Positions 1-5,443 of a stretch of 64,000 nt of DNA are shown one piece after another. Made by a program: the position numbers and the translations under genes. The stretch covers positions 544,567 to 608,566 of the forward strand of contig NZ_LMPO01000008.1 of NCBI RefSeq assembly GCF_001424385.1, in the 5' to 3' direction. The DNA is from Curtobacterium sp. Leaf183 (lineage in GTDB: Bacteria; Actinomycetota; Actinomycetes; Actinomycetales; Microbacteriaceae). A model generated the notes under the pieces. That model had not been told where the DNA came from. It did not search any database and saw only the letters and a list, made by a program, of their open reading frames with translations. Numbering within the stretch: the stretch's first letter is position 1; every line of letters begins with the position of its first letter.

Positions 1-2097
1 CAGGAACGCCGCGTACCCGCCGATCGCGATGCCGATCAGGACCTTGCCCACGCGGCTGGTCAGCGCACCGACGACCTGCCTGCGGTAGTACCCGAGCACG
101 AGGCCGTGCGTGAAGACGACCTGCCAGGTCAGGAGCGGGAACACCGCGTTGAACTGCGATTGCAGCGGCGCGAAGTCCGGGTTGAGCGCCTGGAAGACGT
201 AGAGCGCCCAGCTGACCACCAGCACCGCCCACCAGAACCCGCGGCGGATCACCCAGAGCAACAGTGGGATGAACAGGCTCAGCACCACGAAGAGCCCCAT
301 GATGTTGAACGGCCACGGCCCCATCTCGAGCAGCAGGAACTGCCGGATCGCGAACCACGGCGGTGGGTAGGCCAGCAGCTGCATCGCGTTCGGGTACAGG
401 TCGTAGACGCGGCCCTCGGCGCCGACGCCGCCGGTGCCGGTCCCCCGGTCGGTGAAGGTGGTGATCGCGTCGGTGTTGAGGAACGGCACGAAACTCAGCG
501 CGAAGACGACCGCGATCACCACGAGCGTGACGACGTACTGCTTGCGCGCCCGCTTGAACGCCCCGACCGCGGCCACCCACTCGCCGAACTTCCTCACCGC
601 GAGCGGGTACGTCATGCCGAGCACCATGCCGGACAGGAACACGAACATCTCGGCGCCGGTGATCGCCCCGACCGCGTGCAGCGTCAGGTACGAGTACGGA
701 CCGCCGATCTCGATGTGCGTGATCACGACCGCCAGGATGATGAACCCGCGGAACAGGTCGAGGCGCAGGTCGCGCCCAGGCTTGCCGTCGTCCGGGTAGC
801 GCCAGCTCGGCAGCAGTCGCCCGAACAGCCCGCTCAGCAGGAACACGGCGGCCAGCCCCGCGGCCAACCAGACGATCCACGCCATCTGGTCGCCGCCGGT
901 GTCCAGCTGCTGGTTGGTGGCGGCGTTGCCGTCCTGCGGGGTGATGCGCTCGGTCACCGGCCCGGACACGAAGCGATCGGTCTGCTGCAGGTCGGTGCGG
1001 AGGGAGCCCGCGATGCCCGGCACCGCCGTGTCTCGCCAGTCGGCGACGCGGTTGCCGGCCTCCGGTTCGCGGCGGTTCGTCTCGAGGAACGTGACACCGC
1101 GGACGAGCGGGCGGTCCTGGATCGCGCTGAAGACCTGCCGCCACCACCCCTGCTTGACGGCGAGCTCGTCGGCGCCGCGCAGCGAGTGGTCGTACAGCGC
1201 CCCGGTGTCGAGCAGCATCGGACGGTCGTGCCCCTGGGCGAAGCGCGTGTAGAAGTCGCTCTGCTGCGGCTGCTGATAGCCCCACGTCTCGGCGAAGCGG
1301 GCCGCGACCTCGCCGGACTCCGGGACGTCGTTCGACGTGAGCGGGACGTCGCGCCCGGCGGCCTCGGTCGCCTTGCCCTTGCCGAAGTAGTACATCGACA
1401 TGCCGACCCAGTCGACCGACGCGTCGCCCGGCCAGTACGGCTCGTAGGGGTCGTCGGCTGCGGTGAGCTGCCCGTCGCCGTTCGTGTCGAGCTTCGCGGT
1501 GTCGGTGGCGGACAGGTCCTGCAGTCGCCCGGCGGACTGGCCGAACGGGTAGCCCGCGCCGTACGACGGTGACCAGACCATCAGGGCGTCGGACGACCCG
1601 CCGTGCACCGCCTTCGCGAGGGCCCGGAACGCCGCGACGTACTGCGTCGGCTGCTGCCCCCACCGCACCCACGTGCCGTTCATCTGCGGCGCGAACCGCA
1701 CGAGCACCTGCGTGCGGTACTGCTGGTGCACCTGTTCGAGCAGGTCGTTGGCGTGCCGGGCGTCGGCAGCGGTGAGGGTGCGCAGCGCGACGTCGGGCTC
1801 GAGGCTCACGACGAGGGTGGCCCCCTGCGCCGCTGCGGCACGGGTCGAACGGAGCAGCTGCTTCCGGGCGGCGCCGTCGATCGGGTAGTCGACCTCGACG
1901 CCGTAGCTCGACGGTGTCGCACCGAGCCGCCCCGCGTACCCGTCGGGCGCATCCGAGCCCCAGTCGAGGTCCGGGCCGTACCAGGCCCGGTCGGACGCCG
2001 GCGTGATCGGGGCGGCCTGTACCGGGAGCGCTCCCCCGAGGAGCAGCGTGCCGGCGACGACGACGAACGTGACGAGTCTGGTGAACGTCCTGCTCAC
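1..2097 (-). CDS. GH26-like domain fused to OpgC-type membrane acyltransferase (3' end outside window)
   Basis: The start is a GTG overlapping the stop of the upstream ATPase gene (GTGA). An N-terminal hydrophobic segment with an Ala-rich cleavage region looks like a signal peptide. Residues of about 30-330 resemble glycoside hydrolase family 26, with the segment FAPQMNGTWVRWG standing where GH26 has its HEMNG acid/base motif. A membrane segment follows near residue 385. After it comes a typical OpgC start (RDLRLDLFRGF, then GAEMFVFLSGMVLG) with several membrane helices. OpgC proteins transfer acyl groups to periplasmic or extracellular glucans, so I infer modification of the polysaccharide made by the coupled GT2. 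The usual catalytic glutamates of GH26 are not evident, so this part may bind rather than cut glycan. The frame is open to the window edge. Confidence 0.75.
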   Translation of the reverse strand, partial: MSRTFTRLVTFVVVAGTLLLGGALPVQAAPITPASDRAWYGPDLDWGSDAPDGYAGRLGATPSSYGVEVDYPIDGAARKQLLRSTRAAAAQGATLVVSLEPDVALRTLTAADARHANDLLEQVHQQYRTQVLVRFAPQMNGTWVRWGQQPTQYVAAFRALAKAVHGGSSDALMVWSPSYGAGYPFGQSAGRLQDLSATDTAKLDTNGDGQLTAADDPYEPYWPGDASVDWVGMSMYYFGKGKATEAAGRDVPLTSNDVPESGEVAARFAETWGYQQPQQSDFYTRFAQGHDRPMLLDTGALYDHSLRGADELAVKQGWWRQVFSAIQDRPLVRGVTFLETNRREPEAGNRVADWRDTAVPGIAGSLRTDLQQTDRFVSGPVTERITPQDGNAATNQQLDTGGDQMAWIVWLAAGLAAVFLLSGLFGRLLPSWRYPDDGKPGRDLRLDLFRGFIILAVVITHIEIGGPYSYLTLHAVGAITGAEMFVFLSGMVLGMTYPLAVRKFGEWVAAVGAFKRARKQYVVTLVVIAVVFALSFVPFLNTDAITTFTDRGTGTGGVGAEGRVYDLYPNAMQLLAYPPPWFAIRQFLLLEMGPWPFNIMGLFVVLSLFIPLLLWVIRRGFWWAVLVVSWALYVFQALNPDFAPLQSQFNAVFPLLTWQVVFTHGLVLGYYRRQVVGALTSRVGKVLIGIAIGGYAAFL

Positions 2098-2495
2098 CGG
2101 GTGCACACCAGCGTCCACACGTTGTGTCCGCCCTCGTGTCGGTGCTCGAGTCGGTCGAGCGCCGCGATCGCGAGCGCCAGGCCACGACCGTTCTCGGCGT
2201 CGACGTCCGCCATCGTCACGGCGCTCAGGTCGAGGTCGACCGGCAGCCCGTTGTCACGGAGCACCGCCGTGTACTCCTGCTCGGTCGCGCGGAGCTCCAC
2301 CGTGTAGCGCCGCCCGGCCTGACGGTCGGTCCGCGCCGTGTGCTCGACGATGTTCGCGGCGATCTCGGCCACGGCGGTCTCCAGCGCGAAACGACGTGCG
2401 ACGTCGTCGACGCCCAGCCCGTCCCACCACACGGCGAAGCGGTCCTGGACGGTGTCGAGACTCTCGGGCACGGCGGGGACGTCGAACGCGGTCAC
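2094..2495 (-). CDS. RsbW-like anti-sigma / serine kinase ATPase
   Basis: A 133-residue single-domain GHKL ATPase. The N box reads ETAVAEIAANIVEHT (about residues 40-54), the G1 box is LRDNG, and the G2 region is ENGRGLALAI. This is the RsbW/SpoIIAB pattern for proteins that bind sigma factors or phosphorylate STAS antagonists. The GTG start at 2495 overlaps the stop of the GT2 gene, and its stop overlaps the start of the GH26/OpgC gene, so all three are translationally coupled. No sigma factor or STAS partner is encoded nearby. Regulation of exopolysaccharide synthesis by partner switching is an inference. Confidence 0.8.
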   Translation of the reverse strand: MTAFDVPAVPESLDTVQDRFAVWWDGLGVDDVARRFALETAVAEIAANIVEHTARTDRQAGRRYTVELRATEQEYTAVLRDNGLPVDLDLSAVTMADVDAENGRGLALAIAALDRLEHRHEGGHNVWTLVCTR

Positions 2496-4513
2496 AGGGG
2501 GCCTCCGGAGGTGGTCGACTCGTGCTCGGACTGGACGGTGCCCGGTCCGCGGTACAGCACGGCGCGGATGACGATGCTGAAGATGAACAGGTCGAAGACG
2601 ACCCAGGCGGTGTTGACGAGCGGCGCGATGCCGGACGCCTGCCCGGTCAGGTAGCGGATGCCGATCAGCACGAGTGCCCCGACGAGCGCCCCCATCGCGA
2701 ACAGCTGCGGGCGGACGAGGTCCCAGCGCGGCTTCGCCTCTGCCTCGTCGCGGACCTTCGGCGTGACCCGGAAGCCGAGGGGCTTGCCGCGGAACACGTT
2801 CTCGAAGGCACTGGTCACGCTCTCGATCCACACCGGGAAGAGCGCGAGCGAGTACTGCTGCCCGCGCCAGGTGGGTCTGCCGGCGGCCACGACCCAGAAC
2901 AGCAGCTGGTTGAGCACCAGGAACGGGATCAGGCGCGCGAAGAAGTCGACGCTGTAGGCCTGCACCGGCACGACGCCGAAGGACAGGCAGAGCACCGGGG
3001 CTGCGATGTAGACGATCGCCGCGAAGCCGGACAGGTAGCTCCACATCGTCGAGAAGTACATGAGCCGCTGCCCGAACGACAGGCCCTTCTGCACGAGGGG
3101 GTTCTCGCGGAAGAAGACCTGCATGGTGCCCTGCGCCCACCGAAGGCGTTGCACGAGCATGGTCGGCAGGTCCTCGGGGGCCAGGCCCTTCGCCAGGATC
3201 TCGTCGTGGTACGCCGACTTCCATCCCAGGCCGTGCAGGCGCATCGCGGTCGCCATGTCCTCGGTCACCGAGATCGTGGCCAGCGGCATCACCGCCTGCG
3301 CTTCGTCGCCACGGTTCACGTCGACCGCGCGGGCGAGCACAGCGATCGCCTCGATCGCGACGACCGGGGACGCGTTGCGCTGTCCGAGCACGTCGAGTGC
3401 GGCGTCGTCGAGCCCGGCGAACGTGTTGGCGTCCGTGGACATCGCCGCCAGGTCCTGCAGGTCGTTCCGCACCGACTCGAGGTCGGCGGCGGCGAACCGA
3501 AACGCGATGGCGTCGATCCCGCGCTGGAACTCGTAGGTGACGTCGCCCAGGGGCTCGTCGCGGGACATCTGGTCGCGGGCGCGGTCCACCACGCCCTCGG
3601 CGTCGTCGAGCGCGGTGAGCACGCGCGGGTCGGTCTCGGTCTCGCGCGCCCGGGCCAACAGCTTGCGCGAGGTCTTCAGCGTGCGCTCGACCGAGGCCTC
3701 GACCTCCTGCACGTAGCGGGAGATCCCGAGCTGCATGAGGGCTTCACGCCGCAGGATCGCGTTCGAACCGCAGAAGAACGCGGCGTTCCACCCGTCCTTC
3801 GACTGCTGGATGGGACCGTAGAACAGCGGTGCCTGGCTGCCGAGCAGGTCGGCGTCCGGCACGTTCTCGAACCACTGTGGCGTCTGCACGAGCGCCATCC
3901 TGGGGTCCTTGAAGTACCCCAGCGTCCGGTCCAGGATCGCCGGGTCCGGGACCTGGTCGGCGTCGAGGATGAGCAGGAACTCGCCCTGCGTCGCCATCAG
4001 CGCGTTGTTGAGGTTGCCGGCCTTGGCGTGGCGTGGACGGTCGACCCAGTCCTGGCCGCGGGTGATCACCCCGAGGCCCAGCTGTTCGGCCGCCCGGCGC
4101 ATCTCGGGGCGGTTGCCGTCGTCGAGGATCCAGGTGCTGTGCGGGTAGCGGATCGCCTGCGCCGCACGGGCCGTGCGCATCACCAGGTCGATCGGTTCGT
4201 TGTACGTGGTGATGAAGACGTCGACGGTGACGTCGGTGGCGGGCGTGGTCGGCGGTTCGCCGCGCTCACGGAGCCGCCACGCGCCGAACGCGAACAGGAG
4301 CGAGTCGATCACGCTGTAGGTCTCGGCCAGGATGAGCGGCACGGCGATCCACCAGGAGTGCCAGTTCACCGACGCGACCCAGCGCCACACGACGTAGTTC
4401 AGACCCGCGAGCGAGGCGAGCAGCGCGACCGTCCGCACGGCCGTGATGCGGCGGCGGGCCGTGCCCGTCGACAGGCGCCGGCGGTCCTGACGGCTCAGGT
4501 CGAGCGCGGTCAT
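2492..4513 (-). CDS. BcsA-like family 2 glycosyltransferase (polysaccharide synthase)
   Basis: A 673-residue processive GT2 of the cellulose-synthase type. Two N-terminal membrane helices (about 25-75) precede the GT-A domain, and four or more helices follow it. Catalytic motifs are present in order: ILDDG, LDADQ, FFCGSNAILRR, SVTED and QRLRW. The interval between FFCGSN and TED is enlarged by about 170 charged, helix-prone residues rich in Arg, Glu and Asp, whereas in BcsA these motifs are close together. I see no C-terminal PilZ domain. It should polymerise a beta-linked glucan or similar polymer at the membrane. It is the first gene of the coupled operon; the sugar specificity cannot be read from sequence. 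Confidence 0.9.
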   Translation of the reverse strand: MTALDLSRQDRRRLSTGTARRRITAVRTVALLASLAGLNYVVWRWVASVNWHSWWIAVPLILAETYSVIDSLLFAFGAWRLRERGEPPTTPATDVTVDVFITTYNEPIDLVMRTARAAQAIRYPHSTWILDDGNRPEMRRAAEQLGLGVITRGQDWVDRPRHAKAGNLNNALMATQGEFLLILDADQVPDPAILDRTLGYFKDPRMALVQTPQWFENVPDADLLGSQAPLFYGPIQQSKDGWNAAFFCGSNAILRREALMQLGISRYVQEVEASVERTLKTSRKLLARARETETDPRVLTALDDAEGVVDRARDQMSRDEPLGDVTYEFQRGIDAIAFRFAAADLESVRNDLQDLAAMSTDANTFAGLDDAALDVLGQRNASPVVAIEAIAVLARAVDVNRGDEAQAVMPLATISVTEDMATAMRLHGLGWKSAYHDEILAKGLAPEDLPTMLVQRLRWAQGTMQVFFRENPLVQKGLSFGQRLMYFSTMWSYLSGFAAIVYIAAPVLCLSFGVVPVQAYSVDFFARLIPFLVLNQLLFWVVAAGRPTWRGQQYSLALFPVWIESVTSAFENVFRGKPLGFRVTPKVRDEAEAKPRWDLVRPQLFAMGALVGALVLIGIRYLTGQASGIAPLVNTAWVVFDLFIFSIVIRAVLYRGPGTVQSEHESTTSGGPL

Positions 4514-4647: not shown

Positions 4648-5391
4648 TCAGTCCGCCGCCCCGATCTGGGGACGAGCGGCGGCGAAGCCGATGTCCGCCG
4701 CGAGTCGCTCGACGACCAGGTCGAAGTACCGCTCGTGGTCCGTGACCGATCCGACGTAGTGCCCGAACAGCTCGAACGACACGGTGCCGAACACCGCCGT
4801 CCAGGCCATGAGCGTGCGCATCACCGCCTCGACCGGGGCGTCCCGTGTGATCCCCCGCGAGCGGATGTAGTCGATCGCACCGTCGACCACGGAGCCGGGT
4901 GCGCGGGGCGACGGGACGACCGCCGAGGTGGGTGCGTCGCGGCCGTCCATCGCGTCCATGACGATCCGGACCAGCACGAGTGTCGCCCGGGTCGCGGGCT
5001 CGATCGTCTCCTGCGGCGCCGCGTACCCGGGGACGGGCGAGCCGTACAGCAGCGCGAAGTCCCCCGGGTGCGCGAGCGACCACGTGCGGATCGCCCGGCA
5101 CGCGGCGACCCACCGCGCTCCAACGTCCGCTCGGTCGTGCGCGGCGTCGGCCGCCTCGACCGCGGCGCCGAGCTCGTCGTAGTCCTGCACGAGCAGCGCG
5201 GTGAGCAGGTCGTCCCGACTCGGGAAGTACCGGTACAGCGCCGACGACACCATGCCGACGTCACGGGCGACCGCGCGCAGGCTGAGCTGGGCCGGCCCCT
5301 CGTCGGTCAACCGGGCGCGAGCGGCGTCGGTGATGCGCGCGCGGATCGTCTCGCGAGCGAGGTCGCGTGCAGTCGGTGCCCGATCGGTCAT
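4648..5391 (-). CDS. TetR-family transcriptional regulator
   Basis: A 247-residue TetR protein. The N-terminal helix-turn-helix covers about residues 18-62, with LSLRAVARDVGMVSSALYRY as the recognition region. The C-terminal domain resembles the WHG/TetR_C group found next to short-chain oxidoreductases. I chose the ATG at 5391 because the upstream residues of the longer frame look non-coding. It is divergent from the NAD-dependent epimerase gene, and two near-identical inverted repeats lie between them, so it probably represses itself and that gene. Confidence 0.88.
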   Translation of the reverse strand: MTDRAPTARDLARETIRARITDAARARLTDEGPAQLSLRAVARDVGMVSSALYRYFPSRDDLLTALLVQDYDELGAAVEAADAAHDRADVGARWVAACRAIRTWSLAHPGDFALLYGSPVPGYAAPQETIEPATRATLVLVRIVMDAMDGRDAPTSAVVPSPRAPGSVVDGAIDYIRSRGITRDAPVEAVMRTLMAWTAVFGTVSFELFGHYVGSVTDHERYFDLVVERLAADIGFAAARPQIGAAD

Positions 5392-5428
5392 CCGTCCACC
5401 CTGCCACCAGAGAGCGCCGATCACAAAC

Positions 5429-5443
5429 GAGAGCACCGCTCTT
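5429..5443. promoter_or_regulatory. Candidate TetR operator 1
   Basis: The sequence GAGAGCACCGCTCTT is an imperfect inverted repeat (GAGAGC, 3 nt, GCTCTT) in the divergent promoter region between the TetR and epimerase genes. It nearly matches the second site 51 bp downstream. Confidence 0.6.

Follow-up and report, generated by a model that had tools for sequence, protein, structure and literature searches.

We examined a 64,000-nucleotide stretch of the Curtobacterium sp. Leaf183 genome (the window; positions 544567-608566 of contig NZ_LMPO01000008.1, here C8), which begins with a three-gene operon encoding a family 2 glycosyltransferase (GT2) resembling BcsA, an RsbW-type kinase and a protein in which a GH26-like domain is fused to an OpgC acyltransferase. 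Judged from sequence, there is in our view an even chance that we see here the synthase end of a partner switch that lacks a sigma factor, in which a small STAS protein would gate the synthase and, in Curtobacterium, would do so from elsewhere in the genome. Somewhat more tentatively, at a little under an even chance, we propose that a whole class of cellulose-synthase-like polymerases in Actinobacteria has STAS as a direct regulatory subunit in place of PilZ, the domain that binds cyclic diguanylate, that the switch parts of different synthases are exchangeable, and that twice a pair of synthase operons has been reduced to a single synthase plus a switch unlinked to it.

That a partner switch controls the making of the polymer had been suggested in an earlier note on this DNA, and this is supported by the relatives of the locus, where genes for PP2C, STAS and RsbW stand together beside the same synthase. 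Linkage was recorded by profile search on six-frame pieces, with a limit of 3.5 kb, same strand as GT2, for STAS and RsbW and of 6 kb for PP2C, GH26 and OpgC. Two sets of loci were used: 43 family loci from 42 genomes (two in G068) of a set of 249 Microbacteriaceae genomes, searched at E ≤ 1e-60 for GT2 and E ≤ 1e-8 for RsbW, and 80 named loci, which are the best 80 of at least 569 relatives and hence biased to near kin. The two sets partly overlap, the GT2 proteins of L088 and L021 are identical, and joint counts are not independent. STAS was linked to GT2 in 39/43 family loci and 53/80 named loci, and PP2C was found near GT2 in 30/43 and 50/80, respectively. The kinase is present and linked in most of these loci: it accompanied GT2 in 36/43 family and 73/80 named loci (one of the latter is L155, an odd plasmid locus, where RsbW was counted as linked at 3.3 kb). 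The commonest order was PP2C-GT2-STAS-RsbW, often with 4-base overlaps, and GH26/OpgC came next in many loci. In the examples scanned, Pfam confirmed GAF plus SpoIIE and STAS domains, and the sensor part of those PP2C proteins examined was a GAF or a receiver domain. By its gene content, this four-gene block makes up a complete partner switch and includes no sigma gene; it is the usual form in Actinobacteria.

Across the 249 genomes, 46 had an RsbW match and 42 a GT2 match; 33 had both, 9 GT2 only, 13 RsbW only and 194 neither (odds ratio 55, p~2e-22, not corrected for kinship). Three of the nine genomes with GT2 only (G040, G115 and G165) have a linked RsbW detected by profile (L066, L065 and L067, respectively). 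L134 has no linked switch, and its genome has another locus of the form GT2-STAS-RsbW. As a separate observation, proteins of about 535 amino acids combining kinase and phosphatase adjoin STAS at L030:8769-10376, L034:9553-11160 and L037:8093-9712, as in SypE-like dual regulators; the L034 protein was assigned by Pfam (HATPase_c_2, GAF, SpoIIE) and those of L030 and L037 by similarity, and there is no GT2 near the L030 and L034 proteins.

The association of STAS with the synthase is closest in G133 and G186, where GT2 continues at its C-terminus into a STAS domain (PF01740, 26.4 and 23.1 bits, cut-off 22.6), at the point where BcsA has PilZ. In G222, G118 and G173, STAS follows GT2 and no RsbW is linked. 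In all five the acceptor motif DSSG is changed to TPAG, TASG or TAAG. The acceptor serine, for which we assumed the phospho-serine position of SpoIIAA/RsbV, was kept in 85/85 STAS with a linked RsbW (53 named, 32 family; L118, assigned by eye, has DSSA), and it was lost in five and kept in two of the seven STAS without one.

The synthase itself contains the Pfam domains Cellulose_synt and Glycos_transf_2, and DD, DxD, TED, QxxRW and FxVTxK are invariant columns of its alignment; FxVTxK is the motif of the gating loop. Its structure model (mean predicted local distance difference test score, pLDDT, 77.5) has BcsA as the leading matches in PDB, indicating a processive GT2 membrane fold. It shares with BcsA and CelA this fold and the motifs, and differs from them in its operon partners, in scoring 339.9 bits against the BcsA equivalog TIGR03030 (cut-off 699.1), in having no match to PilZ either in the protein or in the whole genome, and in a helical insert of about 140 amino acids in the catalytic domain. 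The alignment to BcsA breaks at residue 263, and the insert was modelled as helices 256-292, 296-317 and 322-358 plus two short ones of low confidence. The distance from CGSNA to TED is 161-183 amino acids in 116 rows vs 127-128 in five rows, and these five are exactly the GT2s of G133, G186, G222, G118 and G173 named above, without linked RsbW and with a serine-less STAS. The insert may be a docking site for the switch, by analogy with the STAS-like SiaC, which in the cited account binds the helical stalks of the enzyme SiaD directly (PMC8457831).

The earlier note had described the three genes of the window as joined by GTGA overlaps, and both junctions are present. The closest named relatives of the window GT2, among the best 80, are from Curtobacterium (up to 94% identity), and the three-gene order recurs in 18/19 Curtobacterium-type named loci, the 19th (L100) stopping at a contig edge, so the order is not due to chance. 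It was likewise right that no STAS gene is near: there are two STAS matches in the genome, one stand-alone on another contig (C9), carrying DSSG, and one in a 537-amino-acid frame that is probably a transporter. The locus also has no PP2C; three PP2C over the cut-off lie elsewhere in the genome.

A kinase without STAS did not hold up as the normal composition of the system. Among the loci examined it occurs only in the Curtobacterium clade and L155, and this candidate was ruled out by the linked STAS of the relatives and by the GT2 tree. That tree (121 rows) needs three changes for the STAS-less rows, and the 23 Curtobacterium-type GT2 rows form one clade nested among complete loci (Shimodaira-Hasegawa-like approximate likelihood ratio test, SH-aLRT, 100). 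On tree and gene content, the Curtobacterium operon is a derived state in which STAS and PP2C have been lost and the kinase remains.

Within the genus (66 genomes), the STAS-less kinase was found in 59, of which 57 also have one unlinked STAS; the two exceptions (G267 and G309) have fragmented assemblies. In G286 and G287 the operon is complete, STAS included, with no unlinked pair seen; G260 has the unlinked pair only, and G256, G263 and G269 have neither kinase nor STAS. A second RsbW adjoins the unlinked STAS in 16/16 loci read. The 16 pair loci examined are all flanked by AraC and phosphoenolpyruvate (PEP) carboxylase genes, flanks which they have in common with G163, where GT2-STAS-RsbW lies at that place. 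Between STAS and PEP carboxylase there are GT2 and PP2C in G163, an MFS transporter in 11 loci and no gene called in five. In the RsbW and STAS trees the unlinked pair groups with G163; the window kinase falls with Frigoribacterium, G168 and G286/G287. These positions suggest that one operon kept a synthase and its kinase and another kept STAS and its kinase. General gene order is the basis on which we read the direction as a loss of GT2, not a gain in G163.

A second case appears in the Arthrobacter agilis clade, whose locus (L127, L128, L133, L137, L145 and L135) is GT2-GH26/OpgC without switch genes. In the five genomes of L127, L128, L133, L137 and L145 there is exactly one GT2 match (E ≤ 1e-40), and all five carry a PP2C-STAS-RsbW cassette without GT2 on another contig; L135 was seen at the locus only. 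The best matches of the cassette (PP2C 73-74%, STAS 75-77%, RsbW 54-58%) come from Arthrobacter operons with GT2 between PP2C and STAS. By these matches the clade is a second, independent reciprocal loss, left with one GT2 and one unlinked switch. Reduction to a single synthase and a single switch is what one would expect of a switch that can act in trans on every such synthase.

In the mechanism that we propose, PP2C would dephosphorylate the small STAS protein, and the RsbW-type kinase would phosphorylate and bind it. Unphosphorylated STAS would dock on the cytosolic side of the synthase (the place of PilZ in BcsA) and/or on the helical insert, and would thereby turn synthesis on. The kinase of the Curtobacterium operon would most likely act on the sole remaining stand-alone STAS, on the other contig beside the second RsbW. 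The OpgC protein would probably acylate the exported glycan, while the inactive GH26-like domain would hold the chain.

Several observations weigh against this proposal. RsbW of the same kind was found in 13/207 genomes without GT2, so such cassettes can work on targets other than GT2, as might the unlinked STAS. L054 and L069 keep the STAS serine without a linked RsbW, although the L054 genome has RsbW elsewhere. Since the fused STAS has no serine, the fusion indicates association and not control by phosphorylation. The large counts also overstate independence, because the losses took place only a few times and among related genomes.

The kinase might instead act on GT2 directly, binding or phosphorylating it, for example at the insert, and in Curtobacterium without any STAS. 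We consider this unlikely. It would account for the 4-base overlap of GT2 and RsbW in 19/19 Curtobacterium-type named loci and for the insert being about 40 amino acids shorter in the five GT2s that lack a linked RsbW and have a serine-less STAS, and the kinase does appear intact. The window kinase matches PF13581 (HATPase_c_2, E=2.5e-12), though it does not reach the RsbW/SpoIIAB equivalog models of NCBIfam (15.5 bits vs 145 and 12.9 vs 155), and the residues E44, N48, D81, G83, G103 and G105, which we take to form the ATP site, are kept in 23/23 Curtobacterium-type kinase rows. However, STAS is the slightly steadier neighbour of GT2 in the family loci (39 vs 36 of 43), and it is STAS that is the fusion partner of GT2, with the caveat that Curtobacterium reverses the order in the named loci (STAS 53 vs RsbW 73 of 80). 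Quite unlikely, in our judgement, is control of transcription, in which RsbW would hold a sigma factor that STAS frees, the synthase genes being mere neighbours or targets. The best-known partner switches, RsbW/RsbV and SpoIIAB/SpoIIAA, work in this way, and sigma-70-type matches do occur in the genome, though short of the SigB/F/G cut-off (best 133 bits vs 234). The statement in the earlier note that no sigma gene is near was checked for the SigB/F/G type alone; to that extent it stands, as no match in the genome exceeded the cut-off, a strict one passed in only 1/14 control genomes. A sigma-factor target was therefore not supported; moreover, the conserved neighbour is the synthase, and the GT2-STAS fusion would be left unexplained.

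It is slightly less likely still, we think, that RsbW is a fading remnant of a switch decayed in Curtobacterium, with the synthase constitutive and the unlinked pair doing something else. STAS and PP2C are gone from the operon, the A. agilis clade likewise no longer has the kinase at its locus, and by pN/pS (the proportion of nonsynonymous over that of synonymous differences, with pS near saturation in this comparison) the kinase is the fastest-evolving of GT2, RsbW and the OpgC part, the Curtobacterium medians being 0.49 for the kinase vs 0.17 for GT2. Frigoribacterium, a near relative that keeps STAS, has 0.08 for the kinase vs 0.09 for GT2, which leans towards decay in Curtobacterium and adds to the points against our proposal; Clavibacter, also keeping STAS, has 0.41 vs 0.15. 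Relaxed selection on the Curtobacterium kinase is thus possible, with a kinase/GT2 ratio that varies among STAS-keeping lineages. Against a remnant, none of the 61 full-length kinase matches of the b type across the genus has an internal stop, pN/pS is below 1, the overlap architecture is kept, and all six ATP-site residues are conserved in the Curtobacterium-type rows although two of them, D81 and G83, vary among the 81 other kinase rows, in which E44, N48, G103 and G105 are invariant.

For the third gene, the earlier note had called a secreted GH26-like domain fused to OpgC; fold and OpgC are both present, but in this protein the GH26 part has probably no hydrolase activity. OpgC_C (PF10129) matched with E=1e-52 and 179.7 bits against a gathering cut-off of 21.4. 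A Pfam scan gave no match for the GH26-like part; in PDB the leading matches of its AlphaFold2 model (mean pLDDT 83.3) are GH26 enzymes (template modelling score, TM, ~0.5 by query length), and stand-alone homologous neighbours match PF02156. Sequence searches of solved structures gave nothing useful with the GH26/OpgC protein or with RsbW. The acid/base and nucleophile glutamates, whose catalytic roles we assume, are replaced by Gln 141 and Asp 300, and both are replaced in 22/22 Curtobacterium-type rows. A hydrolase was rejected for Curtobacterium on these residues, though the fold is kept, and the domain is by sequence probably a non-hydrolytic, glycan-holding pseudoenzyme on an acyltransferase. 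Among 35 fused relatives outside Curtobacterium, the acid/base Glu was kept in 32, the nucleophile Glu in 14 and both in 12, and these 12 may be active hydrolases; stand-alone GH26 neighbours (n=22) have both in 20, the other two being truncated at one. The protein shares the OpgC_C domain with OpgC acyltransferases and the fold with GH26 glycanases; what differs here is their fusion in one protein and the replacement of both catalytic residues. In Curtobacterium sp. ZW137 (L087:10426-12921), GH26 and OpgC were called as separate genes with 15 bases between them. The GT2-STAS fusions have next to them a second, divergent stand-alone GH26 gene on the other strand (L071:9474-10427 and L072:5187-5984), the L071 copy being above the Pfam cut-off.

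Features of the operon and of related loci are listed in Table 1; the third gene was completed from the genome sequence beyond the window start. Near the operon, L009:1937-8300 holds probable regulator, binding-protein and transporter genes and a terminal GFO/IDH/MocA oxidoreductase, of which only the oxidoreductase was scanned. This region resembles a sugar uptake operon and adjoins an MFS gene on the far side of the three-gene operon.

Table 1. Positions of the features discussed (window coordinates unless a locus is named)
Feature	Position	Strand	Basis or remark
BcsA-like processive GT2 synthase, 673 aa	2492..4513	-	domains, motifs, model
RsbW-type HATPase_c_2 kinase, 133 aa, no adjoining STAS	2094..2495	-	Pfam, ATP-site residues
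GH26-like domain fused to OpgC acyltransferase, GTG start at 2097	1..2097, runs past window start (828 aa total)	-	
Full GH26/OpgC gene	L009 12178-14664		window's own genome
GTGA overlap, GT2 stop / RsbW start	2492..2495	-	
GTGA overlap, RsbW stop / GH26-OpgC start	2094..2097	-	
Helical insert in GT2 catalytic domain, residues ~256-397	3323..3748	-	candidate docking site for switch
GH26-like domain, ~residues 37-380, probable pseudoenzyme	958..1989	-	alignment and fold
TetR-family regulator upstream of operon	4648..5436	-	PF00440, PF13305
GT2-STAS fusions, phospho-serine replaced	L071:7046-9433 and L072:6013-8130		

Partner switches that act on an enzyme are known. The cited account describes BgrV-BgrR, HsbA-HsbD and SiaABC-SiaD as switches acting on diguanylate cyclases (PMC8457831). 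The present system would be like these in that an enzyme, and not a sigma factor, is controlled through phosphorylation of a STAS-type protein, and unlike them, as there described, in that the proposed target is the polymer synthase itself, in Actinobacteria, with a contact suggested by the genes. SypE-SypA of Vibrio fischeri and HmpU-HmpV-HmpW of Nostoc punctiforme are described as polysaccharide or biofilm switches in which unphosphorylated STAS is active, and the direct targets of SypA and HmpV are reported there as unknown (PMC8256260, PMC4517449). Unlike in the Syp and Hmp systems as those accounts present them, the STAS of Actinobacteria is encoded next to one particular synthase or as a part of it, and a candidate target can thus be named. 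A STAS-glycosyltransferase fusion is also mentioned for Anabaena all4160, with STAS at the N-terminus (PMC8256260); here STAS is C-terminal on a BcsA-like GT2, and the two are likened by description only. The earlier note knew of no described system of this composition; among the papers listed in a search of open-access literature, none was found to describe a STAS/RsbW/PP2C module with a BcsA-like synthase. The parts were known already, and the new element is their wiring to this synthase.

BcsA-type synthases are the textbook example of control by cyclic diguanylate (c-di-GMP). A switch based on serine phosphorylation seems to take its place in a large actinobacterial branch, which includes Curtobacterium, Nocardioides, Arthrobacter, Rhodococcus and Gordonia. 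The polymerase is a concrete candidate answer to the question of what STAS acts on in the Syp and Hmp systems, and our analysis suggests that a stress-type protein switch can be what gates a cellulose-synthase-like enzyme in bacteria.

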